Shown here: positions 30,727 to 50,016 of the stretch, one piece after another
Layout of the letters: each line of letters opens with the position of its first letter
How positions within the stretch are numbered: position 1 is the first letter of the stretch
From: Prevotella pallens ATCC 700821
GTDB lineage: Bacteria; Bacteroidota; Bacteroidia; Bacteroidales; Bacteroidaceae
Direction of reading: 5' to 3'
Assembly: GCF_000220255.1 (NCBI RefSeq)
Contig: NZ_GL982513.1
Span: 1-64,000, forward strand
DNA length: 64,000 bases
Notes under the pieces: generated by a model
Database searches by the model: none
Told to the model about the DNA's origin: nothing
What the model saw: only the letters and a program-made list of their open reading frames with translations
Translations under genes and position numbers: made by a program

Positions 30727-32070
30727 TTATATCAGCACCGTATCTTTGCGTTTATAGAAGTCGGAAGTGATGTTAGCGATGGCTTCTGACACTTCTTTGC
30801 TAACATAAGAAAGGTTGCGTTGACCTTGAATAGACTTGATAAAAGTAAGCAGTTCGTAGCGAATACCTTCGCCATCGAGTTGATAGAAGTAGCGCTTATT
30901 GTCGCTTGGATTCTCTCTACGCACCTCAAAATAATCGGTTTTCCACCACGGAGCAGGCACGTAAATGTAGCCTTCGGTACCAGAAATAACAAGTTCGCCT
31001 TCCGATTTTATGCCTTGTCCGACCTTCAACGATGCCACTGCGTGGGGATAAATGAACGATATTTTAGTGAATGTATCGAAGTTTGGCGCATCGTCAATAA
31101 GGTGTGTGCAGATGGTTTTACGGGTATAGTCGGTTCCTAACAGCTGTAAAATTGGGAGAAGAGCCGTAGGTGCCCATGCGCAAAAACTGTTCCAAGTGAA
31201 TTGTAGTACTTCTTTATTCTCTGTATTGTAGTGCGAAAGACTCGTGCAAGTGGCATCAATGGAATATATCTTACCTATTTTCCCACTCTTTGCAAGCAGG
31301 CAAAGGCGATCGTATGCCATAGAATAAGCCGTTTTTATAGAGTCCATCAAGATTACTCCTTGCTCGTCTGCAATGCTGTTAAGTTCTTTCCACTCCTCGT
31401 TATTTAGTGAAATGGGCGATTCGCATAGCACGTGCTTCCCCTGTAACAAGGCTTCTTTGATGTGTGTATAATGTTTTTCGGGGTGCGAAATAATGTAAAC
31501 GGCATCTGAAACCTCGAGTAATGCAGCGTAATTGTCGGCAAAGAAAGGCACTGTTTCGTGTAAATTACCCAGATTCTGGTTGCTTTCTGCATACACACCA
31601 CTAATATTTATACCATTAACAAACTTACTTTCGCGTGCAAACTTGGTTATAATAGACGACTCGCCCACCAGTCCGATACGTATTTCGCATAGGTCTGAGC
31701 GCAATTCTGTACTGGAAATACCTTTCGTTCGCTCGAGATAGACTACCTTACAATACTCTGATAGGTAGTCAAACTTACCCCGCCAGTCTGAACCTACGGT
31801 AAAAATATCGACATTCATACGCTTTATGTCGTCTATTTTCTGCCCTTCGTACTCTTCAATCACTATTTCGTCAGCCAAACCAGTGGACCTTACGTTCTCT
31901 ATTCGCTCCACAAGTGATTGCTGAACGTTTATCTTTCCTCGTTCGCGATCGAAGGTATCGGCTGTTACACCCACTATTAAGTAGTCGCCTAATGCCTTTG
32001 CCCGTTCTAACAAACGCACGTGCCCTTTGTGCAATAAGTCGTAAGTTCCGTAGGTAATGACTTTTTTCAT
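30727..32070 (-). CDS. Fusion: glycerol-3-phosphate cytidylyltransferase-like + Gfo/Idh/MocA oxidoreductase
   Basis: 447 residues. Residues 1-130 are a TagD-like nucleotidyltransferase with GTYDLLHKGHVRLLERAK (HxGH at 14-17) and the C-terminal signature ERTKGISSTELR. That is the pattern of CTP:glycerol-3-phosphate cytidylyltransferases rather than FAD synthases. Residues 131-447 form a Gfo/Idh/MocA oxidoreductase: the Rossmann segment IRIGLVGESSI, HPEKHYTHIKEALLQGKHVLCESPIS (EKP motif changed to ESP), and a C-terminal beta domain with SGTEGYIYVPAPWW. One chain would thus make a CDP-activated polyol phosphate and oxidise or reduce a related sugar or polyol. It is 6 bp from the aminotransferase gene, so they form an operon. 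Confidence 0.85.
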   Translation of the reverse strand: MKKVITYGTYDLLHKGHVRLLERAKALGDYLIVGVTADTFDRERGKINVQQSLVERIENVRSTGLADEIVIEEYEGQKIDDIKRMNVDIFTVGSDWRGKFDYLSEYCKVVYLERTKGISSTELRSDLCEIRIGLVGESSIITKFARESKFVNGINISGVYAESNQNLGNLHETVPFFADNYAALLEVSDAVYIISHPEKHYTHIKEALLQGKHVLCESPISLNNEEWKELNSIADEQGVILMDSIKTAYSMAYDRLCLLAKSGKIGKIYSIDATCTSLSHYNTENKEVLQFTWNSFCAWAPTALLPILQLLGTDYTRKTICTHLIDDAPNFDTFTKISFIYPHAVASLKVGQGIKSEGELVISGTEGYIYVPAPWWKTDYFEVRRENPSDNKRYFYQLDGEGIRYELLTFIKSIQGQRNLSYVSKEVSEAIANITSDFYKRKDTVLI

Positions 32071-32076
32071 CGTTGT

Positions 32077-33156
32077 TTAAAGTTTGCCAATGTTGTGTAA
32101 TTCGTTGAATGCTGCTACAAGTGTAGAGTTATTTTCGGGTGTCAGTGCACCAATATGGCCTACTCGAAAGATAGTATCGCGCATATCACCACCGTTCGGA
32201 CAAATCCAGATACTATACTCGTCTTTAAGTGTTTCGAATATACTGAAAGCCGAATTGTTTAGTGGGTGCAGTGCCGTTACTGCGTTCGAAGGCGATTTTG
32301 TGATAAGTTCCAAAGGCAAATGGGCTATTTTCTGTCGGAAATCCATAGCCAAATTGCGTGTTCGTTCTATCTCTGCTGCAACTCCGCCAGTACGTTCTAT
32401 CTCTTTCAATCGGTAGTTAATTTGTCGCAATATACCCACAGCTGGAGTGAAAGGTGTTTGTCCTCGTTCGCCATTACGTAGTGCATCTTTTAAATTTAAA
32501 TACATACAGCGAACATTATTGCGTTCGATACGTTCGATAGCTCGTGGCGAAAGCACTATAATTGAAATACCTGGAGGACAAGCTAAAGCCTTCTGCGAAC
32601 CTGTAATCATAACGTCGGCACCCAATTGTTTCATATCAAACTCGTCGGCAAGAAACGAACTTATGGCATCGACAAGCAGGAAAAGATGGTTGCGACGGCA
32701 GAATTTGCTGATTAAATCAATGTCGTAATGCACGCCCGTAGAGGTCTCGCCAACATTCACAAGAAAGGCTGTGTAGCCCTGACCATCGTACTGCTCGAGC
32801 ATCTCGGCAGTGATTTGCTCGCCTATTTTCATCTTTATAACAGTGTGGGGAATGGCATACAATTCGCACAAATCAACAAAACGTTGTCCGAAACTACCTC
32901 CGTTTACCACCAAAACCTTATCGGCTGGAGTTAGAATATTCATTACTGATGCTTCCATAGAGGCTGTTCCTGAACCTGTTATGAATACCACACGAGCATC
33001 ATCGTCTGCTTTTGCAAACTCTTTCATTAGTTTTTCGTTCTCTTTCATAGTGGCAGAGAATTCTGAAGTACGAAAGTAAGGCACTTGTTCTGCACCTATT
33101 TCTCTTACTTTGTCAGCCGACATTACGGGCCCTATTGTGAAGTTTAGCATACTCAT
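32077..33156 (-). CDS. Class V aminotransferase (alanine-glyoxylate/2-AEP transaminase-like)
   Basis: 359 residues from the ATG at 33156 ([11 protein letters not shown]); longer readings run into the divergent gene's promoter and are rejected. The PLP fold type I features are [16 protein letters not shown] (phosphate cradle), LLVDAISSF (Asp that pairs with the pyridine nitrogen) and Schiff-base Lys189 in [14 protein letters not shown]. The family includes serine-pyruvate, alanine-glyoxylate and 2-aminoethylphosphonate transaminases. The substrate is not fixed by sequence; the neighbours suggest an amino-polyol or phosphonate-type building block for a surface glycan. Confidence 0.85.
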
Positions 33157-33224
33157 AACTATATTATTATTATATAATGTGTGCAAAGTTACTGCTTTTT
33201 TTTCGCTTTGTCGGCTAATTAAAC

Positions 33225-33232
33225 TATCTTTG
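33225..33232 (+). promoter_or_regulatory. -7 box upstream of the CDP-glycerol phosphotransferase-like gene
   Basis: TATCTTTG, 18 bp before the ATG at 33251, predicts a start near 33239. The -33 region is weak. Confidence 0.5.
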
Positions 33233-33250
33233 CAGAAAAATACAAGTATA

Positions 33251-34300
33251 ATGCGCATTTTATTGTTCTGTGAAAACAAATATGCTGTGGATATTCTACA
33301 GCCTATCCAAACAGAGGCTAACAAAGAAGGAAACAACGATGTGCTGTGGTATGTACACCAAGAAAAGATACCAGATTTTCCATTAAAAGACTGCGTGAAA
33401 TGGACTAACAGCATACAGGAAAGTTTCGATTTCAGTCCAGAAGCCATATATGTACCAGGCAACATTGTACCTTATTATCTGCCTGGGGTAAAGATTCAAA
33501 TATTCCACGGCTATGCTGCAGAGAAGAAAGACCACTGGGTGATACGCCGTTATTTCGACATTTATTGCACGCAAGGACCCTACTTTACAAGTCATTTCAA
33601 GGCTTTGGCAAAAAAATATGGCGACTTCTCTGTGGTAGAAACAGGCTGGACACGCCAAGACTACATATTTGCACATCGCCATAACTTCGATAACGAGCGA
33701 ACAGAACTACTACAAGAGCACGCCTGCGAACGCATTGTGGTTTATGCACCAACATTCTCTCCAAAACTAACTTCCATTCCGTTTATCCTCAACGACCTGC
33801 GTAAGCTTGCCGACACACGCCGTGTTCTGATTATCATGAAACTACATCCACTGACCAAAACAGAATGGGTGGAAGCCTGTCGGGCACTTGCCGATAGTCA
33901 TAAAAACATTATAATGGTAGGCGAATTTGCCCTTACAAAATATCTTTTGATGGCTGATGTAGTGGTGAGCGATACCTCGTCTGCTATCTACGAGGCTCTC
34001 TTGATGGATAAACCAGTTATAACTCTAAATGCCATATCGAAAGATTTGTATTGGAAAAACATTACCGATGCTTCGCAACTGTGCGATGCTTACGACGATA
34101 TATTTACGAATAAAGAAATTGCCAACCTACGCAAATGGGTGATAAACAACTACGATCCTTACTTAGATGGGCGGTGTGCACAGCGCATGCTAGACGCTGC
34201 ACGCAACTATATAGCCCAATATGGAGTGCCAAAACAACGTAAACTGAATCTCTGGCGTAAGTATACCAGCATTAAAACCTTTGGAAAAATAAAGCGATAA
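33251..34300 (+). CDS. CDP-glycerol glycerophosphotransferase-like protein
   Basis: 349 residues from the ATG at 33251, chosen because the longer frame overlaps the divergent aminotransferase and contains the promoter. Teichoic-acid polymerase-type features are present: [21 protein letters not shown] (the HG motif near residue 89), VVYAPTF (about 165), IMKLHPLTK (about 198), and [22 protein letters not shown] (about 237-258). Such enzymes transfer polyol phosphates from a CDP donor to a glycan or lipid. There is no signal or membrane segment, so it acts at the inner face of the membrane. A CDP-donor synthase is encoded divergently, 1.1 kb away, making a matched pair. Whole teichoic acids are not known in Prevotella, so a phosphopolyol decoration is more likely. 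Confidence 0.82.
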
Positions 34301-34416
34301 ACGTTGCAATAGTACACAAAAATATAGCGTAAACGAGACGTAAAAAAGCGTAAATATTCTTCAAGCAATAATTATCTTGTAACTATCTCATTATCAACGC
34401 AAAGTAAAAACCATTG

Positions 34417-34453
34417 TTTTGCATTGTAAAAACCACCTTTTTGCAATGCAAAA
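34417..34453. repeat. GTAAAAACCACC repeat, left flank
   Basis: TTTTGCATTG (34417-34426) pairs with CAATGCAAAA (34444-34453). The stretch starting GTAAAAACCACCTTTTTGC matches 26 of 29 bases of the copy at 50199, in the same orientation. Confidence 0.7.
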
Positions 34454-34599
34454 TATAGGTTTTTGTGTTGTAACTAATTAATGAAAAAGAAGAGATATCG
34501 AAGCTGATGTAAACTAACTGATAATGAGAGAGAAACGAAATGATTTGCATAATACTGCTCTGTTTGTAAAGGGCAGGAATATGCAGATTTAGGCAGAAG

Positions 34600-34664
34600 T
34601 TCAGTTACCAGAGCGTTACCTTGTTTTGATGTAGGTAACGATGGTATAGCATTCGGTAACTGAA
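34600..34664. repeat. Nested inverted repeats near the integrase
   Basis: Outer arms TTCAGTTACC (34600-34609) and GGTAACTGAA (34655-34664) are perfect complements. Inner arms CGTTACC and GGTAACG lie inside them. Repeated GGTAAC cores beside an integrase gene suggest recombinase arm-binding sites or an operator. GTTACCTTG here recurs inverted at 50146-50154 beyond the other end. Confidence 0.5.
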
Positions 34665-34762
34665 TTATTTTCGCTAGTGTGGCTGTTGCTTTGGTCAGCA
34701 GTTTTCTGCGTATGTGAGGAACGCTTTAATTCGGGTAATTTTGCCCACAAATATTAAAGCGT

Positions 34763-35992
34763 ATGAAAACAGAGAAAATGAAGGTGTTGCTCTACCTTAA
34801 AAAGAGCGGGCTTGACAAATCGGGGAAAGCTCCGATTATGGGACGTATTACCATTGGGCGTTCCATTGCCCAGTTCAGTTGTAAACTCTCCTGCAATCCT
34901 GACTTATGGAATTCACGTGAGAGCAGAATGGATGGCAAGAGCCGTGAGGCGGTAGAAATTAATGGGAGATTGGAGAATCTGTTGCTTTCCATTCAATCTG
35001 CCTATCAGTCGCTAATTGCCAAAGGACAGCCATTTGATGCAACTGATGTAAAGGAACTGTTTCAAGGCAGTGTACAGGCAAGATGTATGCTTATCGAGAG
35101 GCTGGATATGCTCATCAAGGAGAAGGAAAGCCATATCGGTATAGACATCAAGGAAGGGTCTATGTACGCCTATCATTCCACTCGGAAACGATTACAGGAG
35201 TTCATTCAGAGGAGGTATCATGTTTCGGATTTGGCTTTCTCGCAGCTTACAGAAAGCTTTATCTATGAGTTGCAGGCGTTCTGTCTCGGTGATCTCGGTC
35301 ATCAGCAAAGCACATTTTTCAGAGTTGCAGCAGATTTGAAGACCGTCTGCAGGCTAGCTTATCGTGAGGGGTTGGCTGATACGCTTCTGTTTGACAAAGT
35401 CCATATAGAACGGGGAGACAAGAAAGCGCCCAAGACTCTCGACCAAGAAGCATTGGACAAGTTGAAGGCACTCCGTTTTGATGAATTGGAAGAAGAAATG
35501 GAAACCGCTCGTGATGTGTTTCTCTTCGCCTGTTATACCGGTGCAGCCTATTGTGATTTGATAGAACTAAGCAAGAAGCATCTTATCCGTGACGATGAGG
35601 ATTGTCTTTGGTTAAAGTTCAACCGACAGAAGACAGGTGTGCTTTGTCGTATCAAGCTATTGCCCGAAGCAGTTCAATTAATACAGAAAATGCACAGCGA
35701 TGAAAGGGAAACACTGATCCCTTACTTCAAATATTCCACTTATCAGTCCTGTCTCAAAGCCTTGCGATTACGGTCAGACATTTCTTTTCCCTTTACTACG
35801 CACACTGCAAGGCATACCTTTGCCACACTTATCACATTGGAGCAGGGCGTACCTATTGAAACGGTGAGCAAGATGCTCGGACATACGAACGTAAGTATGA
35901 CCGAACGTTATGCAAAAGTAACACCGCAGAAACTCTTTGAGGAGTTTAACCGTTTCCTTTCTTTCACCGAAGATTTGCGTTTAACCATTTAA
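34763..35992 (+). CDS. Tyrosine recombinase (integrase 1)
   Basis: 409 residues. An N-terminal Arm-type DNA-binding domain (about 5-95, KVLLYLKKSGLDKSGKAPIMGRITI) is followed by a SAM-like core-binding domain (about 115-220) and the catalytic domain. The catalytic motif HTARHTFAT (HxxR) and nucleophile Tyr in MTERYAKVT are present. The first catalytic Arg position (usually TGLRxxD) reads YTGAAYCDL, so it is missing, as in the CTnDOT integrase. It is the first gene inside the element and lies 12 bp before a second recombinase; both may be needed for integration. Its -7 box overlaps a putative attachment core. Confidence 0.92.
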   Translation: MKTEKMKVLLYLKKSGLDKSGKAPIMGRITIGRSIAQFSCKLSCNPDLWNSRESRMDGKSREAVEINGRLENLLLSIQSAYQSLIAKGQPFDATDVKELFQGSVQARCMLIERLDMLIKEKESHIGIDIKEGSMYAYHSTRKRLQEFIQRRYHVSDLAFSQLTESFIYELQAFCLGDLGHQQSTFFRVAADLKTVCRLAYREGLADTLLFDKVHIERGDKKAPKTLDQEALDKLKALRFDELEEEMETARDVFLFACYTGAAYCDLIELSKKHLIRDDEDCLWLKFNRQKTGVLCRIKLLPEAVQLIQKMHSDERETLIPYFKYSTYQSCLKALRLRSDISFPFTTHTARHTFATLITLEQGVPIETVSKMLGHTNVSMTERYAKVTPQKLFEEFNRFLSFTEDLRLTI

Positions 35993-36004
35993 CCAAGATT
36001 TTTT

Positions 36005-37249
36005 ATGAGAAGTACATTTAAGATACTGTTCTATATCAACAGACAGAAAATAAAGGCAGACGGCAAGACCGCCATTCTCTGCCGTATCACCATAGACGGA
36101 AAAAGCATCGCCATTACCACAGGCGAGCAGTGCAAATCCTCCGAGTGGAATAGCCGACAGGGACTGACAACCGACAAGAAAACCAATCAAAGAATCGGCG
36201 AGTTCAAAGAACTTGTAGAAAAGACCTATCAGGAGATATTGATAAAGGACGGAGTGGTAAGTGTGGAACTGCTTAAAAACCGTTTGCAGAGGATAGCCAC
36301 CATGCCGACAACACTTCTTGCCATGAGCAAAGCAGAACTGCAATCCGTTAAAGAGTGCGTGGGCAAATCGAGAGTTGAGGGAACCTATCAGAATCTTCTC
36401 TATTCAGATAAGTTACTTACGGAATTTGTAAAGGATAAGGGAATGACGGATATAGTCATAGCCACTATAACGGAAGACTTGTTTGAAGAATACCGTTTCT
36501 ATCTGAAAAGACGAGGCTTGGCATCAGCAACCATGAATCGTTATCTTTGTTGGCTGAGTAGGCTGATGTATCGTGCGGTCAGCCATAGGCTCATTCGTTG
36601 CAATCCTTTTGAGAATGCCAAGTATGAGAAAGCGGAACAGAAGATACGCTTTCTGCAAAAGAGCGATGTTGCCAAACTCATGGCATTGAGAGTAATTGAT
36701 AAGGAAGCAGAACAAGCAAGGCGGATATTTATCTTCTCATGCTTTACGGGCTTGGCTATTGCTGATATGGAACATTTGCAATTTGGACACATTCAAACGG
36801 CAGCCGACGGACAGAAATATATCCGAAAAGAACGGCAGAAGACAAAGGTGGAGTTTGTTGTGCCCCTGCACCCGATAGCGGAGGCCATCATCGATCAATG
36901 TAAGGAAGAACTACCCAGCATGAAAGAAATGCAGACAGTGAAAGAAAAAGGTGACGACTTTATCTTTCACTGTGCTTGTAGCCGTAGCGTGATGAGTGCA
37001 AAGCTGAGCATCGTGGGAAAGGCTTGCGGTATCAGAGAACGGTTGTCCTATCATATGGCAAGGCACACTTTCGGTACAATGAGTTTAAGTGCAGGGATAC
37101 CCATCGAGAGCATTGCCAAGATGATGGGGCACGCCTCCATATCAAGCACCCAAATCTATGCACAGGTGACGGACAATAAGATTTCTGAGGATATGGATAG
37201 GTTGATAAGGAAACATCAGACAAAGGAAACGAAGGAGGAAGCCGTATGA
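36005..37249 (+). CDS. Tyrosine recombinase (integrase 2)
   Basis: 414 residues with the same three-domain layout as its neighbour but clearly diverged from it: Arm domain FKILFYINRQKIKADGKTAILCRITID, core-binding domain about 115-210, catalytic domain with YHMARHTFGTMSL and Tyr in STQIYAQVT. The first Arg is again replaced (FTGLAIADMEHL). The tandem pair is a common arrangement in Bacteroidota mobilizable elements. Its stop overlaps the start of the small downstream gene by 4 bp. Confidence 0.92.
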   Translation: MRSTFKILFYINRQKIKADGKTAILCRITIDGKSIAITTGEQCKSSEWNSRQGLTTDKKTNQRIGEFKELVEKTYQEILIKDGVVSVELLKNRLQRIATMPTTLLAMSKAELQSVKECVGKSRVEGTYQNLLYSDKLLTEFVKDKGMTDIVIATITEDLFEEYRFYLKRRGLASATMNRYLCWLSRLMYRAVSHRLIRCNPFENAKYEKAEQKIRFLQKSDVAKLMALRVIDKEAEQARRIFIFSCFTGLAIADMEHLQFGHIQTAADGQKYIRKERQKTKVEFVVPLHPIAEAIIDQCKEELPSMKEMQTVKEKGDDFIFHCACSRSVMSAKLSIVGKACGIRERLSYHMARHTFGTMSLSAGIPIESIAKMMGHASISSTQIYAQVTDNKISEDMDRLIRKHQTKETKEEAV

Positions 37250-37581
37250 ATACCTATCACTATCAAACTAAAAAAGACCGTAGCTATTTCGAGTGGGGCG
37301 ACAATATGCAAATCATTCGCAAAGGCAAAGGTAAAATCGCCATGACAGAGAGCGAACTGGTAGATTTCTTCGGTGTAACATGGAGGAAGCTCAACCATCG
37401 TCTGCAACTTCTACTAAAAGTCTCTCCCCTGCAACCCGACGAAAGGGATACAGGGGAGCAGGAAGTCTACGTGAACGGACGACTGCGAGGTTATGCTCCG
37501 CTTTATCCACTCACAATCATCATCGCCTTGTCTTATCAATTGGACAGTACGGAAGCACACTTCTTCAGGAAACATGTGTAG
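37246..37581 (+). pseudogene. Small element gene interrupted by the IS3-type insertion (5' part)
   Basis: 111 residues remain before a stop created at the insertion. The sequence TESELVDFFGVTWRKLNHRL suggests a winged-helix or helix-turn-helix near residue 33. The last stretch, LYPLTIIIALSYQLDSTEAHFFRKHV, resembles the RhuM-type domain ending in FRxW. If the insertion is removed with ATGT as the target duplication (37574-37577 and 38993-38996), the frame continues as VVKKRTRQALLNLANKLVKEK and stops at 39060, giving about 132 residues. It is translationally coupled to integrase 2, so it may be a recombination accessory protein. Confidence 0.6.
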
Positions 37582-37630
37582 TGTACTGAATAAGTTGACA
37601 CCTTCCCAATCAAAAAAGGAGTAAAAATTT

Positions 37631-37999
37631 ATGTCTCAGTACAATGAATCAGAGAAAATACTGTTATTACATCAGTATGTAACAAGTGGCTTAACCTTGC
37701 ATGAGTTCTCTTCTCGTCATGGTATCCCTTTAAGTACTTTCCATCGTATTTATACCGAATATGGCTCACCCGACGTCTCGTCAGTAGCATATCTTATGAA
37801 AAAAGAAGATATCCCCGTTCAGCTCGAAGAGCTCCAAGCGCAGCTATTACGCGAGCGCAAGGCTCATGAAAAAGAGATTAAACGTCTTGAAAAAGAATTG
37901 GCCGTTGAAAAACTTTATGGTTTGGCCAACAAGACGATGATCGATCTTGCCGAGAAGAAATACAACATCCGTATACGAAAAAACTCCGCTGCCAAGTAA
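37631..37999 (+). CDS. IS3-family OrfA (helix-turn-helix)
   Basis: 122 residues. An N-terminal helix-turn-helix (YVTSGLTLHEFSSRHGIPLSTFHRI, about 18-42) is followed by a leucine-zipper-like coiled coil (VQLEELQAQLLRERKAHEKE and onward, about 62-95). This is the DNA-binding and multimerising subunit. The frame ends at 37999 just after an A6C heptamer, where a fraction of ribosomes would slip into OrfB. Confidence 0.88.
   Translation: MSQYNESEKILLLHQYVTSGLTLHEFSSRHGIPLSTFHRIYTEYGSPDVSSVAYLMKKEDIPVQLEELQAQLLRERKAHEKEIKRLEKELAVEKLYGLANKTMIDLAEKKYNIRIRKNSAAK
37978..37984 (+). other. Programmed -1 frameshift site (A AAA AAC)
   Basis: The heptamer is in the correct phase with OrfA (cgA AAA AAC). 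After a -1 shift the frame runs on through LRCQVIKTLSQGKERQ into OrfB, giving the OrfAB transposase. No stimulatory hairpin was worked out. Confidence 0.8.
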
Positions 38000-38007
38000 T
38001 CAAGACC

Positions 38008-38883
38008 TTGTCGCAGGGAAAAGAAAGACAGGAGCTGGTAACTCATCCTGTCAGTTTACTCTGCGGTTATCTTGGCATAAGCAGACAAGGATATTACCGC
38101 CATGTGGATCGTTCTTTGGAGTTAGACGTCCTGCGCAGCAGCATCGTATTCTATGCGCAGGAGCTCCGCACCTCTTTACCCAAGGCCGGCATACGCATCC
38201 TTTACGAGCTATGCCGTCGCAAGTATGCAGATAAGTTTACCATCGGGCGCGACCAATGCTATGAGCTCTTCCGCTCTAATGGTCTGTGCCTTCGCCGTCG
38301 CAAACGCCCAAGGACGACCAACTCCAATCACCACTACCACATCTATGAAGACCTTCTCAATACAACGCCCAAGCTACATCCCGCCCGCTTCGGTGAGCTG
38401 TGCGTTACGGATATCACCTACGTGGCAACCTCTTCAGGTTGGGCCTATCTCTCTTTGGTAACCGATGCCGCTTCACGTCTGATAGTGGGCTGGTGCCTGC
38501 ATCCGACCCTTGAGAGACAAGGTCCGATGAAAGCCCTCTCTATGGCCATCGATTTCTACAGAAAGTATAATGTCGAACTCTCACAACTCATACACCACTC
38601 CGACCGCGGCGTGCAATACTGCTGCAATGAGTACGTCGACAAACTCAAATCTCTTGGAATACAAATAAGTATGACGCAAACCGGAGACCCATTGCACAAC
38701 GCCCTGGCCGAGAGGATGAACAATACGCTCAAGAACGGATGGCTCTTCAGTACAGAAGACAAAAGTCTGCAGCAGGTCAGGCGCCTTACAAAGAAAGCCA
38801 TCGACCTGTACAACACGTTCAGACCGCATCAGAGTCTGCAGATGAGAACGCCCTTGGAAGAAGTCGCAAGGTTGACGGCATAA
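38008..38883 (+). CDS. IS3-family OrfB transposase (DDE integrase core)
   Basis: 291 residues in the -1 frame relative to OrfA, best read as the C-terminal part of a frameshifted OrfAB; an independent TTG at 38008 is the only visible start. The HTH_21-like region (LPKAGIRILYELCRRKYADKFTIGRDQCYELF) is followed by the rve DDE core. Its first Asp is in CVTDITYV, the second in HHSDRGVQYCC, and the Glu in NALAERMNNTLKNGWLF, with K/R spacing typical of IS3 elements. All three catalytic acids are present, so the enzyme may be active. Confidence 0.9.
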   Translation: MSQGKERQELVTHPVSLLCGYLGISRQGYYRHVDRSLELDVLRSSIVFYAQELRTSLPKAGIRILYELCRRKYADKFTIGRDQCYELFRSNGLCLRRRKRPRTTNSNHHYHIYEDLLNTTPKLHPARFGELCVTDITYVATSSGWAYLSLVTDAASRLIVGWCLHPTLERQGPMKALSMAIDFYRKYNVELSQLIHHSDRGVQYCCNEYVDKLKSLGIQISMTQTGDPLHNALAERMNNTLKNGWLFSTEDKSLQQVRRLTKKAIDLYNTFRPHQSLQMRTPLEEVARLTA

Positions 38884-39000
38884 CTTCATCGGCACACATT
38901 ATTAAGTCAAACAATAAAAGAAGGAGGTAGAAACAACCACAACTAGAAAATAAAGATTAATTTTGCAATTGGAAGACAACTGTCAACTAACTATGTAGTT

Positions 39001-39060
39001 AAGAAAAGAACACGACAAGCCTTGCTGAACTTAGCAAATAAACTTGTCAAAGAAAAATGA
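39001..39060 (+). pseudogene. 3' remnant of the gene split by the insertion
   Basis: Encodes KKRTRQALLNLANKLVKEK and a stop, in frame with the 37246 gene once the insertion and one ATGT copy are removed. The basic, helical tail is a plausible C-terminus. Confidence 0.5.
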
Positions 39061-39548
39061 AATTAAGAAACCAAAGTTGTCAACTAATTCTAGGACATTA
39101 CAATGTATGTCAGAGATTGCAGAAACCTACATCCATAATAACACCGATATTCTTAATAGGAAAGACGGATACCTGATGATTATATTTTCTTTTTCTTTCA
39201 TTGATTATATCTTACTACATAACTACAATAAGGTATAATACGTTGAAAGAAAAAGGATTAAAAATTTTTATTGATATACGAATATTCTTTCGATTATTTA
39301 CTACGCTACTACAAAAAAAGATTTTTATTAAAACTGAATTGACAGTGTATAAAAACTAAAAGCACAACCATGAGAATTTATAGTTTATAACACATAAACT
39401 AAAAGAGCCGTATCAAACCCTATAATGAGTAACGATACAGCTCTTTTCCTTGTTTTGAGGAGGTTAAAGTTTCTAATCAAGAAGTTCACATTCTTTTAGA
39501 TGTTGGGGTTATGTCCCAATAAATATCATAAGTAATATTCTATTACAA
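39061..39548. other. Gap between IS remnant and siderophore-type operon
   Basis: 488 bp, very A+T-rich. No gene is supported. Only the convergent terminator at 39401-39447 is recognised. Confidence 0.5.
39401..39447 (-). terminator. Terminator of the TetR-TonB-DUF4374 operon
   Basis: AAAAGAGCcGTATC (39401-39414) pairs with GATACaGCTCTTTT (39434-39447), with one mismatch and a 19-base loop. It lies about 100 bp past the DUF4374 stop. Confidence 0.65.
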
Positions 39549-40742
39549 CTATTTAAGCTCATGCAACATATAGGGTGCTCCGGAAACCTTTACCTTCAAT
39601 TTTTCATAGCTTCCATCTTTCATGTGATAGACAAAATAACCCGTACCTTGGTCTGTTGACATGCCGAAGATGATGTCATTGCCCGACTTGCAAATGGATG
39701 CCGCCCAGCCTGTAGTTCCTGAGAAGTTCATCTTCTTGCAAGTCTTATCATAGAGATTAATCTCAAAAGGCTGGAACGATTTATCATGAACGTAATCAGG
39801 TGGGTTGCTTGCTGCCCCAGGAATATTTAGGTATCCATAAACCTTTCCGTTTCCACCATATACCTTATTATAGGCATATGAAGTTTTACCTCCTTTTACA
39901 CCATCCAGATTTACATCTGCAAGGGTAAAGCAATAAGACTTGTCAAACTCCTGTTCTCCCTTCTTAATGCGCAAGAAGCCTTCCTTTGCCCCCTTCTGAT
40001 AACCGAACATTCCTACGCAATAGAAATAAATATCACCCTTCTCGTCCACAAACGGATCACCAGCAGGTGTTCCACTGGACGACATCGTGACGCGACTGTC
40101 ACTAATAAGTTTTATTGGCTTGTCTGTTTTCGTGTCAATTAATGCAACATAGGCTCCAGTTTCGCAAGAATAAGCAGACTTCATTTGATTCAGAGACACA
40201 TATAAAATTCCATCTCTGATAACAGAGGCACACGGTTCAGGATTATTGTCACCAGAGGACTTTCCCAAGGAATAGTCGGATAAGTCTATTTCTCCTGTCT
40301 TCGTCATTGAGGATGGGTCAATAATCCACACCTTTCCAATACCAAGGCAAGAAACATATGCCTTCTTATTGGATGCGAACGTGATGTACGTTGCCTTAGC
40401 ACCACTTGGAAATACCATAGTCGTGCCCTCTTGGACGAGCTTGCCATCTTTTGGTGCATATTTGTAGAGGTGTTCCGTGTCAGTCACATATACCTTGCCA
40501 CCATGCACAAATGAAAATGCACCCTTGGCAAACACCAAAGCATTGTCCGTATTGAGCGAACCAGCTGTCAAGTCTTTGAACAGACTGACATATGTGTTCT
40601 CTCCAATATTCACGCTATGCACAAATCCTGCCTCGGACTTTGCTGGTGGTGTTGGAGGAACATCTGGAGTGTCTTTACTACATGAGGAAAGACCTGATAA
40701 CACAAGCAGCGCCGTGGCTGCGACTAAGAAATAATGTTTCAT
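39549..40742 (-). CDS. DUF4374-type beta-propeller surface lipoprotein (XusB-like)
   Basis: 397 residues. A lipobox in SGLSSC (Cys21) and an acidic/Pro-rich spacer (KDTPDVPPTPPAK) point to a surface-exposed lipoprotein. The rest is built of beta-rich repeats such as KVYVTDTEHLYKYAPKDGK, KAYVSCLGIGKVWIIDPSSM and ILYVSLNQMK...YVALIDTKTDKP, as in a propeller. DUF4374 proteins sit next to TonB receptors in Bacteroides; XusB of B. thetaiotaomicron is such a protein and captures enterobactin-type siderophores. The same role is inferred here from fold and neighbour. It is 35 bp downstream of the TonB receptor gene. Confidence 0.78.
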   Translation of the reverse strand: MKHYFLVAATALLVLSGLSSCSKDTPDVPPTPPAKSEAGFVHSVNIGENTYVSLFKDLTAGSLNTDNALVFAKGAFSFVHGGKVYVTDTEHLYKYAPKDGKLVQEGTTMVFPSGAKATYITFASNKKAYVSCLGIGKVWIIDPSSMTKTGEIDLSDYSLGKSSGDNNPEPCASVIRDGILYVSLNQMKSAYSCETGAYVALIDTKTDKPIKLISDSRVTMSSSGTPAGDPFVDEKGDIYFYCVGMFGYQKGAKEGFLRIKKGEQEFDKSYCFTLADVNLDGVKGGKTSYAYNKVYGGNGKVYGYLNIPGAASNPPDYVHDKSFQPFEINLYDKTCKKMNFSGTTGWAASICKSGNDIIFGMSTDQGTGYFVYHMKDGSYEKLKVKVSGAPYMLHELK

Positions 40743-40777
40743 TTTGACTATAAATTTTTGAAATGAATAATAAGAAT

Positions 40778-43192
40778 TTACATACTCATAGCTCCTCCTG
40801 AGACTTTGTCTCGGAACAGATTAAAACGCAATTTAGCCTTAAAGGTTCTGCCTTGCAGTGGCATTTTGAATTCCATGTAGTTCTCTTTGTCAAAAATATT
40901 TTCGACCTCGAAACTCAGAGAAACATTGTTATGCCAAAATGACTGTTGAAGCCCTATGGTAAACACATCGTTGGAAGGAATGATCCATTTCTTTCGTTGG
41001 TCGGGCAGTGTGCTCATTTGCCAGCCCCAATCGAATTCTCCGACATGAGAAACATCAACATAAACTCTGGACAACTCTTTCTTTCCCAACAAACCTTCAA
41101 CGTGATATTCCATGCCATAGTTGTAATAGAATGAAGGTATGTTGGGAACATGCTTGTCATACGTAGGATTATCCGAACCTTTCTCATCGTTTAACCATTT
41201 TTGACGGTCTCGAATGTCCTGCAATGTAAGATTAAAGTATGCATAGACGTTTGGGGTTATATCTACCTTTAAGTCAGTATCGAAACCAAGCGTACTTGTC
41301 TTTCCTAAGTTTATGTATATGGAACGGATGTCAGCGGGGAAAAGTCTTATCATATTCTTCATATACATATAATAAAAATTTGTTTCCCATTGCACACGAG
41401 TAAGCCCCAATAGATTTCTCTTGTCCATGATGACCCCAATGTTCAAATTATCTCCAACTTCTGGCTGAAGATTTACAGAAGGTTTGATACTCATTCCGTT
41501 TCCGAACAATTCTCCCGTATCAGGAATTCTTACATTGTGTGAAAACGAGATTTTTCCCCTCACACCTTTCCACAATTCATAGCTAAGCCCTTCGCTAAAG
41601 CCATAATACGTTTTGTTCACGTTGGTCTGTTGGGGAGCGAATACGCTTTCTGTCTTGTCTTTTGACAAAGCATCGCTTGTTCTATAGATTTTTGACTTCA
41701 GATAATAGATGCTTATTGTCAAGGAATTCTGAAAGCGATTATTAGAAGAAGCAAACAAATAACTTAGTCCGATGTTGTTTGAAGTCATTTTGCTGGGAAA
41801 TGAACTGGGGGCGAAGCCAAGGTATTCATTCATACGATCGTCCTTAGGTCTATAGTCCGAGAATACGAATTGATCATTCAGATTGAAAGTATGTCGTCCA
41901 AGTGTATATTTCAAGTTAAATTTATTTCGCAACTCAAATTGCCGGTCATGGGACTCGTTGAAAAGATTATCCTCTGTCTCCCCATTAGCTGGCGTGACCG
42001 TCCCATTCCATTGCGTTCTTGTAGTTGCCGTATCCGTCATGTTAGAACGTATGATGGGAACAACAAGTGTGTTTTTCAGCTCCAAATCTTTGAAAATGAA
42101 ATTTTTCTTCTCCATATTCAAAGTAGGCATAATATTAAGACTTTTTGTATAGGCATATCGAGAGTCAAAGTTGAGAGACTGTATGCCTTTCTTATTCCTG
42201 TAAAAAGCACATTCCAAATCCAGTTTGTCGAAGTATTGCTTTCTAAAACCTATGCCCACATGATAGAATTCTGCGTCATAATAGTCATTGTTTCGTCTCA
42301 CCTTTCTGTATTCAGAAGCAGGTAGATTCGTCTCAAACACTGGCCATGACATCATATAATTGTTCTTGGATTTGTTCCTGAAGAAAGCAATATTGAATAA
42401 TATTCCAGATTTTGCAAAAAGTTTCTGGGCACTTGCAAGTGTCTTGAATGTCCCGAATGATGCCAATTCCTGCGTAAAACCTACTAGGTCACATTCATCC
42501 TCTCGTGTCACTATGTTGATAGCACCACCAAGTCCATCACCGCCATATTCTGCAGGAACGATTCCTTTGTACACCTCTATGTACTTAATTACATCAATCG
42601 GAATATCGTTAATATCAAAGGAACCGTCAGGGCTATTTAAAGGAAATCCATTGATGTAGACAGCGACTCGCTTACCCTCCAGCCCATGTACAGATATGCG
42701 AGAGGCACTTCCTAATCCGCCTGACTTTCTCACCTTGATGCCAGACGTTCTTGTGAGAATTTCTTCTATACCGCTTGAACGTCCCCTCAACTTGGATCCG
42801 TCCACTACGGTTACAGCCATAGGACTCTGCCGAATGCGGTTTATTTCCGCCTGCTGGGAAGATCCCCTCACTACAACTTCGTTAAGGACGTTCGCTGATG
42901 ATTCTAAGAAAAAGTCTTTTGTGATATTGCCGTTTAACACAATGACTTGCCTTACTCGTTTATATCCAACAAATGAAACCTCAACGATACATGTTCCATT
43001 TGAGAGAATGTCAATTTGATAATTGCCTGTTTTGTCAGAAACTGTTTTCTGTTTTGTGTTTTTGATTGATATGTATGCCCCAGATATGGGAAGTCCTGTT
43101 TCTTTATCTATGATTTTCCCACGTAATATATTTTGGGCAGACAAAACTGTTGTACACAAACACAGTATCGTTACGATGAATAATCTGTTCAT
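40778..43192 (-). CDS. TonB-dependent outer-membrane receptor (XusA-like)
   Basis: 804 residues. A signal peptide (1-19, ending LSAQ) is followed by a CarboxypepD_reg-like domain (about 22-105, LRGKIIDKETGLPISGAYISIKNTKQ). The plug comes next (about 125-235, with VYINGFPLNSPDGSFDINDIP and the GGDGLGGAINIVTR plug end), then the 22-strand barrel closing with ENIFDKENYMEFKMPLQGRTFKAKLRFNLF. The single-barrel form without a SusD partner suits iron-chelate or vitamin uptake rather than glycan uptake. Together with the DUF4374 lipoprotein, xenosiderophore import is the best guess. The PepSY reductase that accompanies XusAB is not in the window. Confidence 0.88.
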   Translation of the reverse strand: MNRLFIVTILCLCTTVLSAQNILRGKIIDKETGLPISGAYISIKNTKQKTVSDKTGNYQIDILSNGTCIVEVSFVGYKRVRQVIVLNGNITKDFFLESSANVLNEVVVRGSSQQAEINRIRQSPMAVTVVDGSKLRGRSSGIEEILTRTSGIKVRKSGGLGSASRISVHGLEGKRVAVYINGFPLNSPDGSFDINDIPIDVIKYIEVYKGIVPAEYGGDGLGGAINIVTREDECDLVGFTQELASFGTFKTLASAQKLFAKSGILFNIAFFRNKSKNNYMMSWPVFETNLPASEYRKVRRNNDYYDAEFYHVGIGFRKQYFDKLDLECAFYRNKKGIQSLNFDSRYAYTKSLNIMPTLNMEKKNFIFKDLELKNTLVVPIIRSNMTDTATTRTQWNGTVTPANGETEDNLFNESHDRQFELRNKFNLKYTLGRHTFNLNDQFVFSDYRPKDDRMNEYLGFAPSSFPSKMTSNNIGLSYLFASSNNRFQNSLTISIYYLKSKIYRTSDALSKDKTESVFAPQQTNVNKTYYGFSEGLSYELWKGVRGKISFSHNVRIPDTGELFGNGMSIKPSVNLQPEVGDNLNIGVIMDKRNLLGLTRVQWETNFYYMYMKNMIRLFPADIRSIYINLGKTSTLGFDTDLKVDITPNVYAYFNLTLQDIRDRQKWLNDEKGSDNPTYDKHVPNIPSFYYNYGMEYHVEGLLGKKELSRVYVDVSHVGEFDWGWQMSTLPDQRKKWIIPSNDVFTIGLQQSFWHNNVSLSFEVENIFDKENYMEFKMPLQGRTFKAKLRFNLFRDKVSGGAMSM

Positions 43193-43196
43193 AATT

Positions 43197-43832
43197 TTAT
43201 GGATTAATGAGTTCTCGCCATCCTGCCGTATTATAGCGTATGTATTCAGATAAGACCTGTTTTACCTCTTCCTTGCAGATTTCTGTGCTTGAGACAATCT
43301 CTCCGATGATCGTTACCCATGTGGAAGAGGAAATCCGAAAGAATAGTGACGAAACTTTTGTTTGTATTTGTGGATAGACTTTTTGCATTTGATCAATATA
43401 TTCTTTACTTATTGCAACTTGTTCTTCGATAAAATTTTCACGGAAAAACTCTACAGAAGTACCTTTTGATTCAAAGAGTAATAACTTTAATTCTTCTTTA
43501 TATAAGAAAATTATTTTAAGCGTTTCTCTTAGCAAATCTTTTTGATTTTGTATAGAGAAGTGAAGTTTATCTGTTTTGTTATGTTCTATGCGATAGGAGG
43601 ACATCCTTTCATCCAAGACTATAAGTAAAGGTCTAAGGACAGTATAAAAAATATCATCCTTTGTCTTAAAATAATTGTATATATTACCTAAGGTAACTCC
43701 CGATTTTGCCGAAATTGTTCGCATCGAAGTTTTTCTAAAGCCATTTTTAATAAATTCATTGCGAGCTGCTGCGACAATCTTGTTTCTTATATCTTCTTTT
43801 AATATTTTCATTACTATTTTATTAACGGACAT
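43197..43832 (-). CDS. TetR/AcrR-family regulator
   Basis: 211 residues. The HTH is clear: RNKIVAAARNEFIKNGFRKTSMRTISAKSGVTLGNIYNYFKTKDDIF (about 16-62). The C-terminal ligand domain is not recognisable. It starts at 43832 or at an inner ATG (43811). It lies 4 bp upstream of the TonB receptor gene in the same direction, so it is probably an autoregulated local repressor of the cargo operon. A TetR protein, rather than Fur, controlling such an operon is unusual. Confidence 0.88.
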   Translation of the reverse strand: MSVNKIVMKILKEDIRNKIVAAARNEFIKNGFRKTSMRTISAKSGVTLGNIYNYFKTKDDIFYTVLRPLLIVLDERMSSYRIEHNKTDKLHFSIQNQKDLLRETLKIIFLYKEELKLLLFESKGTSVEFFRENFIEEQVAISKEYIDQMQKVYPQIQTKVSSLFFRISSSTWVTIIGEIVSSTEICKEEVKQVLSEYIRYNTAGWRELINP

Positions 43833-43856
43833 CGTTCAGTTTTGTTCATAAAAAAA

Positions 43857-43882
43857 AGCGTACTGTTAAAAAACAGTACGCT
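43857..43882 (-). terminator. Terminator of the excisionase-like gene pair
   Basis: AGCGTACTGTT (43857-43867) pairs perfectly with AACAGTACGCT (43872-43882) around AAAA. Read leftward it ends in a run of seven T. It separates the HTH genes from the TetR operon. Confidence 0.8.
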
Positions 43883-44016
43883 CCTTTTATTGTTGCCTTT
43901 ATGCGGCTGTGTGATATTTTCATCATTAATTCAATTTTGGATACAAAGGTATGGGAAGAATTCTATACTGGCAATACTTATTAATAGGTATTTTTAATCG
44001 AATTATAATACTAAAT

Positions 44017-44319
44017 TCAAATGGACTTAAAATAGTAATTCTCCTCCAACATCCTTTCCAAGTCCGAAGCCTTGTAGAGTATCTTCCCTGCAAACTGCGT
44101 GTAGGGTATAATCTTCCTGTCTCGGTAGTCCTGCAAGGTGCGGGGACTGATATACAGCCGCTCGCACACTTCCTTTCCTGTGAGGAAAAGTTCGCCTGCA
44201 AAGAGTGGCTTGTGTGTCTGTGCCACTTCCACAATCCGTTTTCCTACACCTCTCAACGCTGAGACAACCAGCTGCATCTCGTCCGTCTCCATGTTCAAGT
44301 CTCTTGCTGTTTCCATCAT
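44017..44319 (-). CDS. Excisionase-like HTH protein 1
   Basis: 100 residues. The C-terminal half is a MerR/Xis-type winged helix (LTGKEVCERLYISPRTLQDYRDRKIIPYTQFAGKILYKASDLERML). A helical N-terminus (about 1-40) may mediate oligomerisation. Such small proteins act as recombination directionality factors or regulators in Bacteroidota mobile elements. Its start overlaps the stop of the upstream HTH gene by 4 bp. Confidence 0.85.
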   Translation of the reverse strand: MMETARDLNMETDEMQLVVSALRGVGKRIVEVAQTHKPLFAGELFLTGKEVCERLYISPRTLQDYRDRKIIPYTQFAGKILYKASDLERMLEENYYFKSI

Positions 44320-44612
44320 ATCTGTCTGTTTTTAGGTTTGTTCAATTTCGTAAGAAGCAATGCTTCCACATCCTCGCGCTTGTAATAGCACTTGTGTCCG
44401 ATTTGCGTAAACGGCAGCACGCCCGTATCACGATAATGCTGCAAGGTGCGCTTGCTGATGTTCAGCAGCCGGCACACATCACCGTTGTGCAGCCAGTCCG
44501 TGTGCTTGCTTTTCTCTCCGAATGCCTTGTGGCAGCATTCCGCAAGGCTCAAGATTTCATCTCGAAGCTTTGCCCAATTGGTTTCCGTAATGACGTAATA
44601 GTTCATAATCAT
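44316..44612 (-). CDS. Excisionase-like HTH protein 2
   Basis: 98 residues with the same architecture as its neighbour: helical N-terminus (about 10-35) and Xis/MerR-type winged helix HNGDVCRLLNISKRTLQHYRDTGVLPFTQIGHKCYYKREDVEALL. The two are paralogues. It is the first gene of the pair and has an excellent promoter at 44658-44688. Confidence 0.85.
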   Translation of the reverse strand: MIMNYYVITETNWAKLRDEILSLAECCHKAFGEKSKHTDWLHNGDVCRLLNISKRTLQHYRDTGVLPFTQIGHKCYYKREDVEALLLTKLNKPKNRQI

Positions 44613-45216
44613 ATTTTGTTATTGTTTGTTGTCTCAGGTCTTTCCTGTTTCTGCTGGCAAAGGTAATGGCGTACGTACGCCTCTCAAAGCCGTGGGGAAC
44701 AGCAGGGAAGTATCGGGAAGAATAGGGAAAAGGGCAATCCGCATCATCTGTTCGCATTTACGCTTTCCTGCCCCATCTTCTTCTTTCATTGTAAAGACAA
44801 TCCAAGCGATTGCAGAGGAAAGTTCACTTATCCTTTGTCGAGCGTAGCTTGTCTTATGCAAAATTAATATTGGATATTTCTTATTCCATCACTTTTCATT
44901 CAAGTGGCAGTTGTGGCGCTATGACAAGGACAAAAGAGACAGATTGATGTTCTTGCCACTGCACAAATGAGGTTAATAAGGTAATCAAAGCAAAAGAGTG
45001 CATCTGAAAGCAAACAACGACATCCGTATTTCTACTAACCTATCTTTCCTGTCATCCGTTTTTTGCTTAATGAGGCGATAAATGCTCTTTTTAACAGCCT
45101 GTTTCCCTAAGAATTTTGCAGCAGACAGATGCAACATTATGCAAGAAGGCTTTGAATGCTTGGAAGTTACGCATTCTCACCCTAACTTCACTCTTGGAAA
45201 CCAATTCAAGGAAATA
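44613..45216. other. Gap between divergent HTH and VapE genes
   Basis: 604 bp with the HTH-gene promoter at its left end. A short G+C-rich stretch follows and then ordinary sequence; no gene is supported. A promoter for the VapE gene is not obvious. Confidence 0.5.
44658..44688 (-). promoter_or_regulatory. Promoter of the excisionase-like gene pair
   Basis: Minus-strand TTTG (44685-44688), 19 bp, then TACCTTTG (44658-44665), exact Bacteroidota consensus, about 46 bp upstream of the ATG at 44612. Confidence 0.75.
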
Positions 45217-46518
45217 ATGAAAAAGAACGCAGATGCAGGCAATATAGATAACAGAAGAAATCCTCATCGCAGGGGTAGCTCATCCAAGAACGCAGAGATA
45301 GAAAACTACCTCTCCACACACTACGAGTTCAGATACAATACAGTATTGGGAAGAACCGAATACCGAAGTAGGAACAGCGGCATATATACAAAAGTCGGTC
45401 GTTATGAAATCAATACGCTCCGCAGGGAACTTGATAACGATGTGGGGATTATTACATCTCCTGACAACCTCTATTCCATCATTGAAAGCAGCTTCTCTCC
45501 CCGTATCAATCCCGTGCAGGAATATTTCAAAGCATTGCCACTGATTGATATAGGTGATAGCAGTAGCTGTGATGGTGAAAGTTTCAGGGATAGTAATGTA
45601 CCTTATCTTTCACTGAAAGCCATTCCCGACTTGGCAAGTTGCGTGGTTGTTCGTAACTCCGACAAATGGCTGCCGTACCTCACCAAATGGCTCGTGGCAG
45701 TGGTTGCCAACGCAATGGACGACCGTGAGTGCCGTAACCACACCTGCCTCGTGCTGACGGGCGAGCAGGGCAAGTTCAAAACTACATTCTTGGATTTGTT
45801 CTGTCCGCCAGCCCTGCACAGTTACAGCTATACGGGTAAGATATATCCACAGGAGAAGGACACGCTCACCTATATAGGACAGAACCTCATAGTAAACATC
45901 GACGATCAACTCAAAGCTCTAAATAAACGTGATGAGAATGAGCTGAAGAACCTCATTACCTGCCCGATGGTCAAATACCGTATGCCCTACGACAAGTATG
46001 TGGAGGAACATCCCCACTTGGCAAGTTTCGTGGCATCGGTGAACGGCAATGATTTTCTTACAGACCCTACGGGCAGCAGACGCTTCCTGCCCTTTGAAGT
46101 GCTTTCCATAGATATTGAGAGAGCAAAAGCTATCTCGATGGACAATGTCTATGCGGAAGCCAAAGCCCTGTTAAAGTCAGGTTTTCGCTATTGGTTTGAT
46201 GATGATGAGATTGCCGAACTATACAGAGAGAGTGAGGACTTTCAAGTACAAACTGCAGAGATGGAGCTTTTGTTGCGTTGTTTTGAAAAGCCAACGGGGG
46301 ATGAAAGTTATTCGTTAATGACCACTACGGAGATACTCACCTATTTGGGTATTTATACTCACCAGCCACTTGTTGCCAAGCGGATGGGCGAAGCCTTGAA
46401 GAAAGCAGGATACATAAAGGTGAGCAAACGAAGAAATGGTGGTAGCCCCATCTATGTCTACAAGATTAGGAAAATCCTACCCTGCCCGCTCCTTCAAACT
46501 TGTAGTAGCCAAATGTAG
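45217..46518 (+). CDS. VapE/D5-type ATPase (replication-associated)
   Basis: 433 residues from the ATG at 45217, chosen because AAGGAA lies a few bases upstream. The in-frame extension to 45082 looks non-genic. The virulence-associated E/DUF3874-type domain has Walker A TGEQGKFKTTF near residues 181-191, Walker B-like LIVNIDDQ, a sensor-type ASVNGNDFLTDPTGSRRFLPFEV segment and a C-terminal winged region (MGEALKKAGYIKVSKR). Such proteins are superfamily 3-like helicases that assist replication of mobile elements. Together with the primase and the iteron array downstream it suggests the element replicates its excised form. Confidence 0.85.
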   Translation: MKKNADAGNIDNRRNPHRRGSSSKNAEIENYLSTHYEFRYNTVLGRTEYRSRNSGIYTKVGRYEINTLRRELDNDVGIITSPDNLYSIIESSFSPRINPVQEYFKALPLIDIGDSSSCDGESFRDSNVPYLSLKAIPDLASCVVVRNSDKWLPYLTKWLVAVVANAMDDRECRNHTCLVLTGEQGKFKTTFLDLFCPPALHSYSYTGKIYPQEKDTLTYIGQNLIVNIDDQLKALNKRDENELKNLITCPMVKYRMPYDKYVEEHPHLASFVASVNGNDFLTDPTGSRRFLPFEVLSIDIERAKAISMDNVYAEAKALLKSGFRYWFDDDEIAELYRESEDFQVQTAEMELLLRCFEKPTGDESYSLMTTTEILTYLGIYTHQPLVAKRMGEALKKAGYIKVSKRRNGGSPIYVYKIRKILPCPLLQTCSSQM

Positions 46519-47675: not shown

Positions 47676-47677
47676 AA

Positions 47678-49970: not shown

Positions 49971-50016
49971 ACATAGCAGCATACAAAAAGTGCAGAATAA
50001 AGAATATCTCATCAAA

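Follow-up and report, generated by a model that had tools for sequence, protein, structure and literature searches.

A Prevotella pallens gene module that may make and use a CDP-activated amino-alcohol

A stretch of 64,000 nucleotides from Prevotella pallens ATCC 700821 (contig NZ_GL982513.1, positions 1 to 64,000), called the window below, carries between positions 30,727 and 34,300 three genes coding for a cytidylyltransferase fused to a Gfo/Idh/MocA-like domain (P0001), a class V aminotransferase (AT; P0002) and a CDP-polyol phosphotransferase-like protein (P0003). The reading that we tentatively favour, without putting it at quite an even chance, is that the locus is a compact module making and using a cytidine diphosphate (CDP)-activated amino-alcohol. 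Serinol is the best guess for the alcohol, the Gfo/Idh/MocA half would be retired, and transfer would be carried out by LicD and PF04464 proteins. That the AT and the fused cytidylyltransferase act in one pathway, as proposed in the preliminary description of this DNA, is strongly supported when seen from the AT side, since a full-length fusion on the same strand accompanies the AT in 74 of 80 loci.

Organization of the locus

The observation of the three genes is confirmed. Their coordinates in the window are:

30727-32070, minus strand: fused gene P0001, 447 amino acids, PF01467 and PF01408 in a single open frame
31690..32070, minus strand: cytidylyltransferase half of P0001, residues 1-127, TagD/TarD type, HxGH and RTxGISST intact
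30727..31689, minus strand: Gfo/Idh/MocA-like half of P0001, residues 128-447 and stop; S218, T302 and S138 replace the catalytic Lys, the Tyr and the third Gly of the NAD motif
32077..33150, minus strand: class V AT, 357 amino acids, PF00266, identical to P0002 minus its first residue
33151..33250, no strand: divergent intergenic region of 100 bp between the AT and PF04464 genes
33251..34300, plus strand: P0003, CDP-polyol phosphotransferase-like, 349 amino acids, PF04464, motifs FHG, LHP and SDTSS

In a profile search the PF01467, PF01408, PF00266 and PF04464 matches of these proteins all lie above their cut-offs, with PF01467 at residues 5-124 (E 4e-17) and PF01408 at residues 130-242 (E 7e-16) of P0001. 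The fusion already noted in the preliminary description is real: both domains are in one open frame and relatives are fused too. It is no frame accident, because 39 of the 251 genomes sampled from the family (this one included) code for a full-length fusion and the predicted model of P0001 is confident (pLDDT 89.5). No further full-length fusion is found among the matches listed from 296 genomes across the phylum (this one included).

The AT gene lies upstream of P0001 on the same strand. The overlap first reported between the two genes is a separation of 6 bp. The PF04464 neighbour said to face this operon is present, but it diverges from the AT gene, head to head across 100 bp, and is not convergent with it. 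The AT open reading frame in the program-made list runs to 33465, which is too early compared to the starts of its relatives; the start is taken as 33150 because relatives begin at MLNF or nearby.

Conservation of the aminotransferase-fusion pair

The 80 AT loci are the best of 361 confirmed in a scan of species genomes with an AT alignment, and are thus the closest relatives, selected from the AT side. By tblastn on all of them, the AT is found in 80 of 80, and the full-length fusion lies within 100 bp in 64. According to the record titles these loci span six phyla (Bacteroidota, Bacillota, Fibrobacterota, Verrucomicrobiota, Elusimicrobiota and Mycoplasmatota), mostly in gut and rumen bacteria. 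Single phylum placements may be wrong since many of the organisms are metagenome bins. The adjacency is not due to chance, as the two genes are neighbours across several phyla.

The 110 fusions compared include near-copies, and the tree of the 106 distinct ones has two main clades. Residue counts by clade refer to 74 members of the window's clade and 33 of its sister clade, with L128, L148 and the second copy in L149 set aside; in the tree labels the AT was entered by hand for eight loci where the script had placed none within two genes. The window's clade has a class V AT in 68 of its 70 tree rows and a HisC-like aminotransferase in two. Partners in the sister clade (33) are short-chain dehydrogenases/reductases (SDR; 19), class V AT (9) and HisC-like enzymes (2). 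The SDR-paired members suggest a variant of the module making a non-amino CDP-alcohol. Twenty SDRs of the sister clade (L072-L097) all have YxxxK, and 18 have GxxxGxG near the start, the other two having a longer called amino terminus.

The cytidylyltransferase half of P0001

The closest relatives of this half in the PDB are 1coz (E 1e-35) and 2b7l (E 9e-35), and ECT is also a relative. The HxGH and RTxGIS(S/T) signatures and Lys46 are the catalytic marks of TagD/TarD (PMC6060094; this and the other papers cited by PMC number were available as excerpts, for which the statements drawn from them hold). Residues H14, H17, K46, R114, T115, S119 and S120 are kept in 110 of 110 fusions. P0001 therefore shares with TagD/TarD the sequence family, HxGH, RTxGISST and K46, but it lacks R63 and W74 and stays below the cut-off of the TagD/TarD equivalog TIGR01518 (112.4 versus 165.4 bits).

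The position of residue 63, basic in TagD/TarD (R63 in TagD), is Gly in 109 of the 110 fusions and Ser in one, while no fusion has Trp at the Trp74 position, 109 having a Tyr one place earlier. Like TagD/TarD, the unfused enzymes encoded in L192, L193, L141 and L148 have a basic residue 63 together with Trp74; those in L126 and L150 keep the former but not the latter. The L192 enzyme gene adjoins PF04464 and GDPD genes. L141 and L148 each carry a TagD-type enzyme in addition to the fusion, which suggests that the two act on different substrates, and we infer that residues 63 and 74 set the specificity. No TagD binding residues are found in the available excerpt of PMC13228409.

The Gfo/Idh/MocA half of P0001

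The second half passes the PF01408 cut-off and has the two-domain Gfo/Idh/MocA fold. The closest fold is KijD10 (Z 33.6, 2.3 Å over 303 residues), and 3e9m is best by Foldseek. In the alignment against 3e9m the EKP lysine corresponds to Ser218 of P0001. This lysine is present in only one of 110 fusions versus 14 of 14 unfused relatives, which are the Gfo-type loci kept from the phylum search; no member of the sister clade (33) has it. At position 138 the NAD motif has its third Gly in all 33 sister-clade members but in only 2 of 74 from the window's clade, and at position 302 the active-site Tyr of KijD10 type is present in 24 of the 33 but in none of the 74, of which 59 have Thr. Judging from these missing residues, the Gfo half in the window's clade is a kept domain but probably not a working dehydrogenase. 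Its role is most likely structural or regulatory. In view of the same losses, neither the oxidation step formerly assigned to this half nor the supposed channelling of an intermediate by the fused enzyme has support.

In the window's clade the commonest residue reaches an average frequency of 0.86 across the cytidylyltransferase half, 0.56 across the Rossmann part and 0.68 across the carboxyl-terminal part; the values in the sister clade are 0.92, 0.62 and 0.77. This order along the Gfo half was dropped as a sign of decay, since both clades show it. The only fusion with the EKP lysine, in an Akkermansia bin (L149 8857-10212, minus strand), is possibly an ancestral active form. In Longibaculum (L148 5211-6937) and Mogibacterium (L128 4088-5392) the Gfo half is strongly diverged while the fusion persists.

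The aminotransferase and its HisC-like replacement

K187 (the pyridoxal phosphate lysine), D161 and R329 are invariant across 10 aligned AT sequences; we take their roles to be those known from class V enzymes. The nearest solved structure is 3f0h (502.9 bits, E 3.7e-150 over 352 residues), a score that makes it probably the same enzyme, and the structure listing names it only "Aminotransferase". None of the NCBIfam family cut-offs is reached by the AT, the best being BhcA with 172.7 versus 650 bits.

Four of the 37 family fusions with called neighbours have beside them a HisC-like aminotransferase with no class V AT seen. Such loci are found in both clades of the tree. The HisC-like companion scores 148.2 bits with the CobD decarboxylase model, under the cut-off of 290.55, and neither Cj1437 nor Cj1436 of Campylobacter jejuni is named among its 60 listed PDB matches.

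Transferases accompanying the module

The PF04464 match of P0003 reaches 50.8 bits versus a cut-off of 22.1, while the equivalog scores are far from reached for TarL (30.9 versus 1000 bits) and TarB (21.9 versus 500 bits). FHG and HP are found in P0003 and in 15 of 15 relatives, and SDxSS in P0003 and 14 of the 15; the His residues of FHG and HP are known to be important from work on TagF. P0003 also just passes the Epimerase_2 cut-off (30.7 versus 30.6 bits), and by this match it might possibly be a sugar transferase. Proteins of its type (above 500 bits) are coded in 14 of the 80 AT loci.

LicD, a transferase family linked to CDP-donor genes, is coded within six genes of the module in 49 of 75 loci (the caller of open reading frames missed the AT in 5 of the 80). 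A transfer step from a CDP-alcohol, as first proposed, is thus upheld by the LicD or PF04464-type transferases that accompany the AT and the fusion. In L068 the AT, fusion, PF04464 and LicD genes are consecutive on one strand. The idea that teichoic-type chemistry is unusual in Prevotella holds in so far as P0003 is the sole PF04464 match in its genome, but not for LicD, present in 189 of 251 family genomes.

The P. pallens LicD gene (C1:96153-96806) is 62 kb from the module and adjoins a lipid A acyltransferase gene. Its product shares 95% identity with the LicD coded in the Prevotella aurantiaca module locus and 53-66% with LicDs from twelve other loci, two of which are second copies of others; the next best is 45%. 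In nine of those twelve, LicD is 1-5 genes away from a called fusion, and the P0003 type is likewise coded in 9 of the 10 loci that carry this kind of LicD. P. aurantiaca has the contiguous order LicD, acyltransferase, a 189-amino-acid gene, PF04464, AT, fusion and the ribD region. In P. pallens the block with LicD and the lipid A acyltransferase (C1:96053-102000, L189) is inverted compared to P. aurantiaca and lies beyond the recombinases, while the intervening DNA matches in part several other P. aurantiaca contigs and in part a region elsewhere on the contig of the module there. From this contiguous order, the displaced and inverted block and the scattered intervening DNA it follows that mobile DNA and rearrangement have probably pulled the module apart.

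The module is flanked by the ribD gene on one side and by two tyrosine recombinases and an insertion sequence (IS)-like transposase pair on the other. Positions 34400-50000 of the window hold these two recombinase genes in tandem, the IS-like pair and following DNA that matches several P. aurantiaca contigs; this segment is probably mobile DNA that helped to separate the module from LicD. Palindromes TTTTRCANTGYAAAA at 30598, 34417 and 34439 are found at both ends of the module, and four occur in the window with at most one mismatch versus 0.23 expected. A phase-variable inversion of the divergent promoter region by the adjacent tyrosine recombinases was considered and rejected, as no close inverted-repeat pair flanks this region among the 25 longest of the 57 pairs listed.

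A second, distant LicD gene of P. pallens (C1:735000-750000; L190 6628-8224) adjoins a gene for an IspD-type cytidylyltransferase and is part of a separate CDP-alcohol locus. Inside or beside some copies of the module are genes for GNAT acetyltransferases (L114, L148), a CDP-alcohol phosphotransferase (L133) and an ornithine cyclodeaminase-like protein (L175); L114 also codes an ATP-grasp-like protein below cut-off (21.2 versus 27 bits). The GNAT and CDP-alcohol phosphotransferase neighbours fit an acylated amine and a CDP-alcohol. Matches to the LicD, PF04464, AT and fusion profiles having been dropped, 79 other immediate neighbours were left; the 78 scanned include 6 GNAT proteins, 6 more distant PF04464 proteins, 6 epimerases and 4 family 2 glycosyltransferases. 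By their sequence families they are the company of surface polysaccharide loci.

Proposed pathway and alternatives

In the pathway that we favour, the AT would aminate a ready keto-phosphate, most likely dihydroxyacetone phosphate (DHAP), to serinol phosphate. The cytidylyltransferase half of P0001, whose intact motifs indicate the chemistry, would then convert this presumed substrate with CTP to CDP-serinol. LicD and the PF04464 protein would finally, as their linkage indicates, move the phospho-amino-alcohol to a surface glycan, probably lipopolysaccharide or capsule. Amination is placed before activation because HisC-like enzymes, which act on phosphate monoesters, replace the AT in 4 of 37 loci. 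DHAP is preferred because known enzymes of such logic use it and because C3 phosphates are the substrates of the nearest cytidylyltransferases. Campylobacter jejuni Cj1437 converts DHAP to (S)-serinol phosphate (PMC11800397), RtxA is a DHAP aminotransferase (PMC3222319) and human PSAT1 aminates DHAP (PMC9283133). An amino-alcohol donor is plausible since the LicD-type Mf1 takes CDP-ethanolamine besides CDP-choline (PMC11982090). An amino-alcohol phosphate is the simplest product of the module. This part of the earlier suggestion of a serinol-like amino-polyol phosphate would stand, with serinol again as best guess, while the oxidation route to it finds no support.

Several observations weigh against this reading. 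The PSAT1 precedent is an extremely slow side reaction, and serinol is a best guess, as the simplest of several possible keto-phosphate products of enzymes whose substrates are inferred. Six of the 80 AT loci have no full-length fusion in the stretch fetched: that of L137 is cut by the contig end and no fusion is found in L106, L121, L140, L142 and L169. Seen from the other side, only 11 of 37 family fusions have a class V AT within two genes, 19 having an SDR, 4 a HisC-like enzyme and 3 none of these; of L064 and L071, whose neighbours were not called and which are outside the 37, the former also has an AT beside the fusion and the latter only a 37%-identical one. The separate conservation of the neighbours, envisaged earlier as a refutation, hence concerns the fusion, often otherwise partnered, but not the AT, which is rarely without it. 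LicD is present in 38 of the 39 family genomes with a full-length fusion but also in 151 of 212 without, so that co-occurrence at the level of genomes is weak evidence for so common a gene. No copy counted has lost the Gfo half (copies were selected on its presence), and conservation is good in its carboxyl-terminal part; the half therefore has some function. An unrecognised catalytic role is conceivable for K246 (Lys in 64 and Arg in 10 of 74), and the sister clade, with its Gly138 and frequent Tyr, may retain redox chemistry.

One alternative is the route of the preliminary description, which we consider unlikely: P0001 would make CDP-glycerol, its Gfo half would oxidise this to CDP-dihydroxyacetone, the AT would yield CDP-serinol and the fusion would channel the intermediate. 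Gfo dehydrogenases are known to pair with aminotransferases on nucleotide sugars (WlbA/WlbE type). KijD10, the closest fold, is a nucleotide-sugar ketoreductase, the Gfo domain is retained, the sister clade keeps the NAD motif, and CDP-ketose chemistry exists in the conversion of CDP-6-fructose to CDP-6-glucitol in C. jejuni HS:5 (PMC10918830). The loss of the EKP lysine from 109 of 110 fusions, when all 14 unfused relatives keep it, and the absence of the Tyr and near-complete loss of the third Gly in the window's clade count against it, and oxidation is unnecessary if DHAP is the substrate. It is also improbable that the substrate handled by the same logic is a ketose or aldose phosphate of larger size (C4-C6) and the product a CDP-aminopolyol in place of CDP-serinol. 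The pocket unlike TagD at positions 63 and 74 would suit this, and capsules with larger polyol phosphates such as glucitol phosphate are known (PMC10918830), but the nearest solved relatives use C3 glycerol phosphate and the known aminotransferases of such logic use DHAP.

Still more doubtful is CDP-ethanolamine as the product, formed from phosphoglycolaldehyde, or from phosphoserine where a HisC/CobD-like enzyme is present, with LicD transferring phosphoethanolamine. Against it, class V aminotransferases are not known to decarboxylate phosphoserine, and phosphoglycolaldehyde is no abundant metabolite. In favour of this product are the relationship of the cytidylyltransferase half to ECT, the match of the HisC-like companion to the CobD model, though below cut-off, the use of CDP-ethanolamine by Mf1 (PMC11982090) and the synthesis of ethanolamine phosphate by Cj1436 through decarboxylation of serine phosphate (PMC11800397).

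A phosphonate route, in which a PhnW-like AT makes 2-aminoethylphosphonate (AEP) and P0001 activates it to CMP-AEP in the style of the PntC pathway, is very improbable. PntC neighbourhoods do hold AEP-making genes, a cytidylyltransferase and LicD-like phosphotransferases (PMC6697681), and P0002 matches PhnW-AepZ, but its 161.6 bits are far below the cut-off of 360.8. The sole PF13714 match in the P. pallens genome is PanB, the ketopantoate hydroxymethyltransferase, and this route is therefore rejected for this genome, which has no phosphoenolpyruvate (PEP) mutase, unless phosphonate is imported. Among 22 AT-bearing genomes nine are above the PF13714 cut-off (the PanB of P. pallens included) and only three exceed 100 bits. 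Xylanibacter brevis (L173; G560:C3:12119-12898) has a strong PEP mutase match, apparently on the same contig and about 10 kb or less from the module; phosphonate and amino-alcohol decorations may exist side by side in this bacterium.

Significance

Beyond the module itself, a wider proposal is possible, though we lean against it: that a zwitterionic and previously undescribed decoration of the surface, phosphoserinol or its N-acylated form, is made by the AT and a CDP-serinol synthase with a retired dehydrogenase domain, serves as a surface group resembling phosphocholine, and has spread horizontally among bacteria that live mainly in gut and rumen, among them Bacteroidota, Bacillota, Fibrobacterota and Verrucomicrobiota. 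In the literature covered, which leaves subscription journals mostly aside, no description of the module, CDP-serinol, CDP-aminoglycerol or phosphoserinol was found, and the match for serinol concerned only methanol-to-serinol engineering. Phosphocholine, phosphoethanolamine and aminoethylphosphonate groups influence the encounters of bacteria with immune proteins; another amino-alcohol group on common gut and oral genera would, if true, be a new surface epitope. The module offers a testable role for 3f0h, solved but listed with no function, and for a cytidylyltransferase fused to a dehydrogenase domain that has apparently been retired. The prediction made is a concrete one: given CTP, DHAP and glutamate, the purified AT and P0001 should yield a defined CDP product.

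Comparison with known systems

The C. jejuni serinol route (Cj1437, Cj1438, Cj1435) relies on a HisC-like enzyme, Cj1437, while the AT of the module belongs to class V. In both systems an aminotransferase converts, or would convert, DHAP to a serinol phosphate destined for a surface polysaccharide; in C. jejuni serinol phosphate is amide-joined and dephosphorylated, and no CDP activation is named in the available excerpt (PMC11800397). Coupled CDP-polyol synthases, such as the Haemophilus CDP-ribitol synthase and the HS:5 CDP-6-glucitol pair, likewise combine a cytidylyltransferase with a reductase for surface polymers (PMC10918830). The HS:5 pair has a PF01128 (IspD-type) cytidylyltransferase and a working reductase of the SDR superfamily, in contrast to the TagD type and degenerate Gfo half found here.

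The closest known kind of system is the Pnt pathway, in which PntC activates AEP to CMP-AEP for LicD-type transfer to a surface glycan (PMC6697681). The module shares with it and with the lic operon (CDP-choline) a small amino phosphonate or phosphate, activation by CTP and LicD-type transfer to a surface glycan. It differs by having no PEP mutase, by its TagD-type (PF01467) and not LicC-type cytidylyltransferase, by the fusion of this enzyme to a Gfo/Idh/MocA domain and by its substrate, which is likely to be a phosphate ester drawn from central metabolism.

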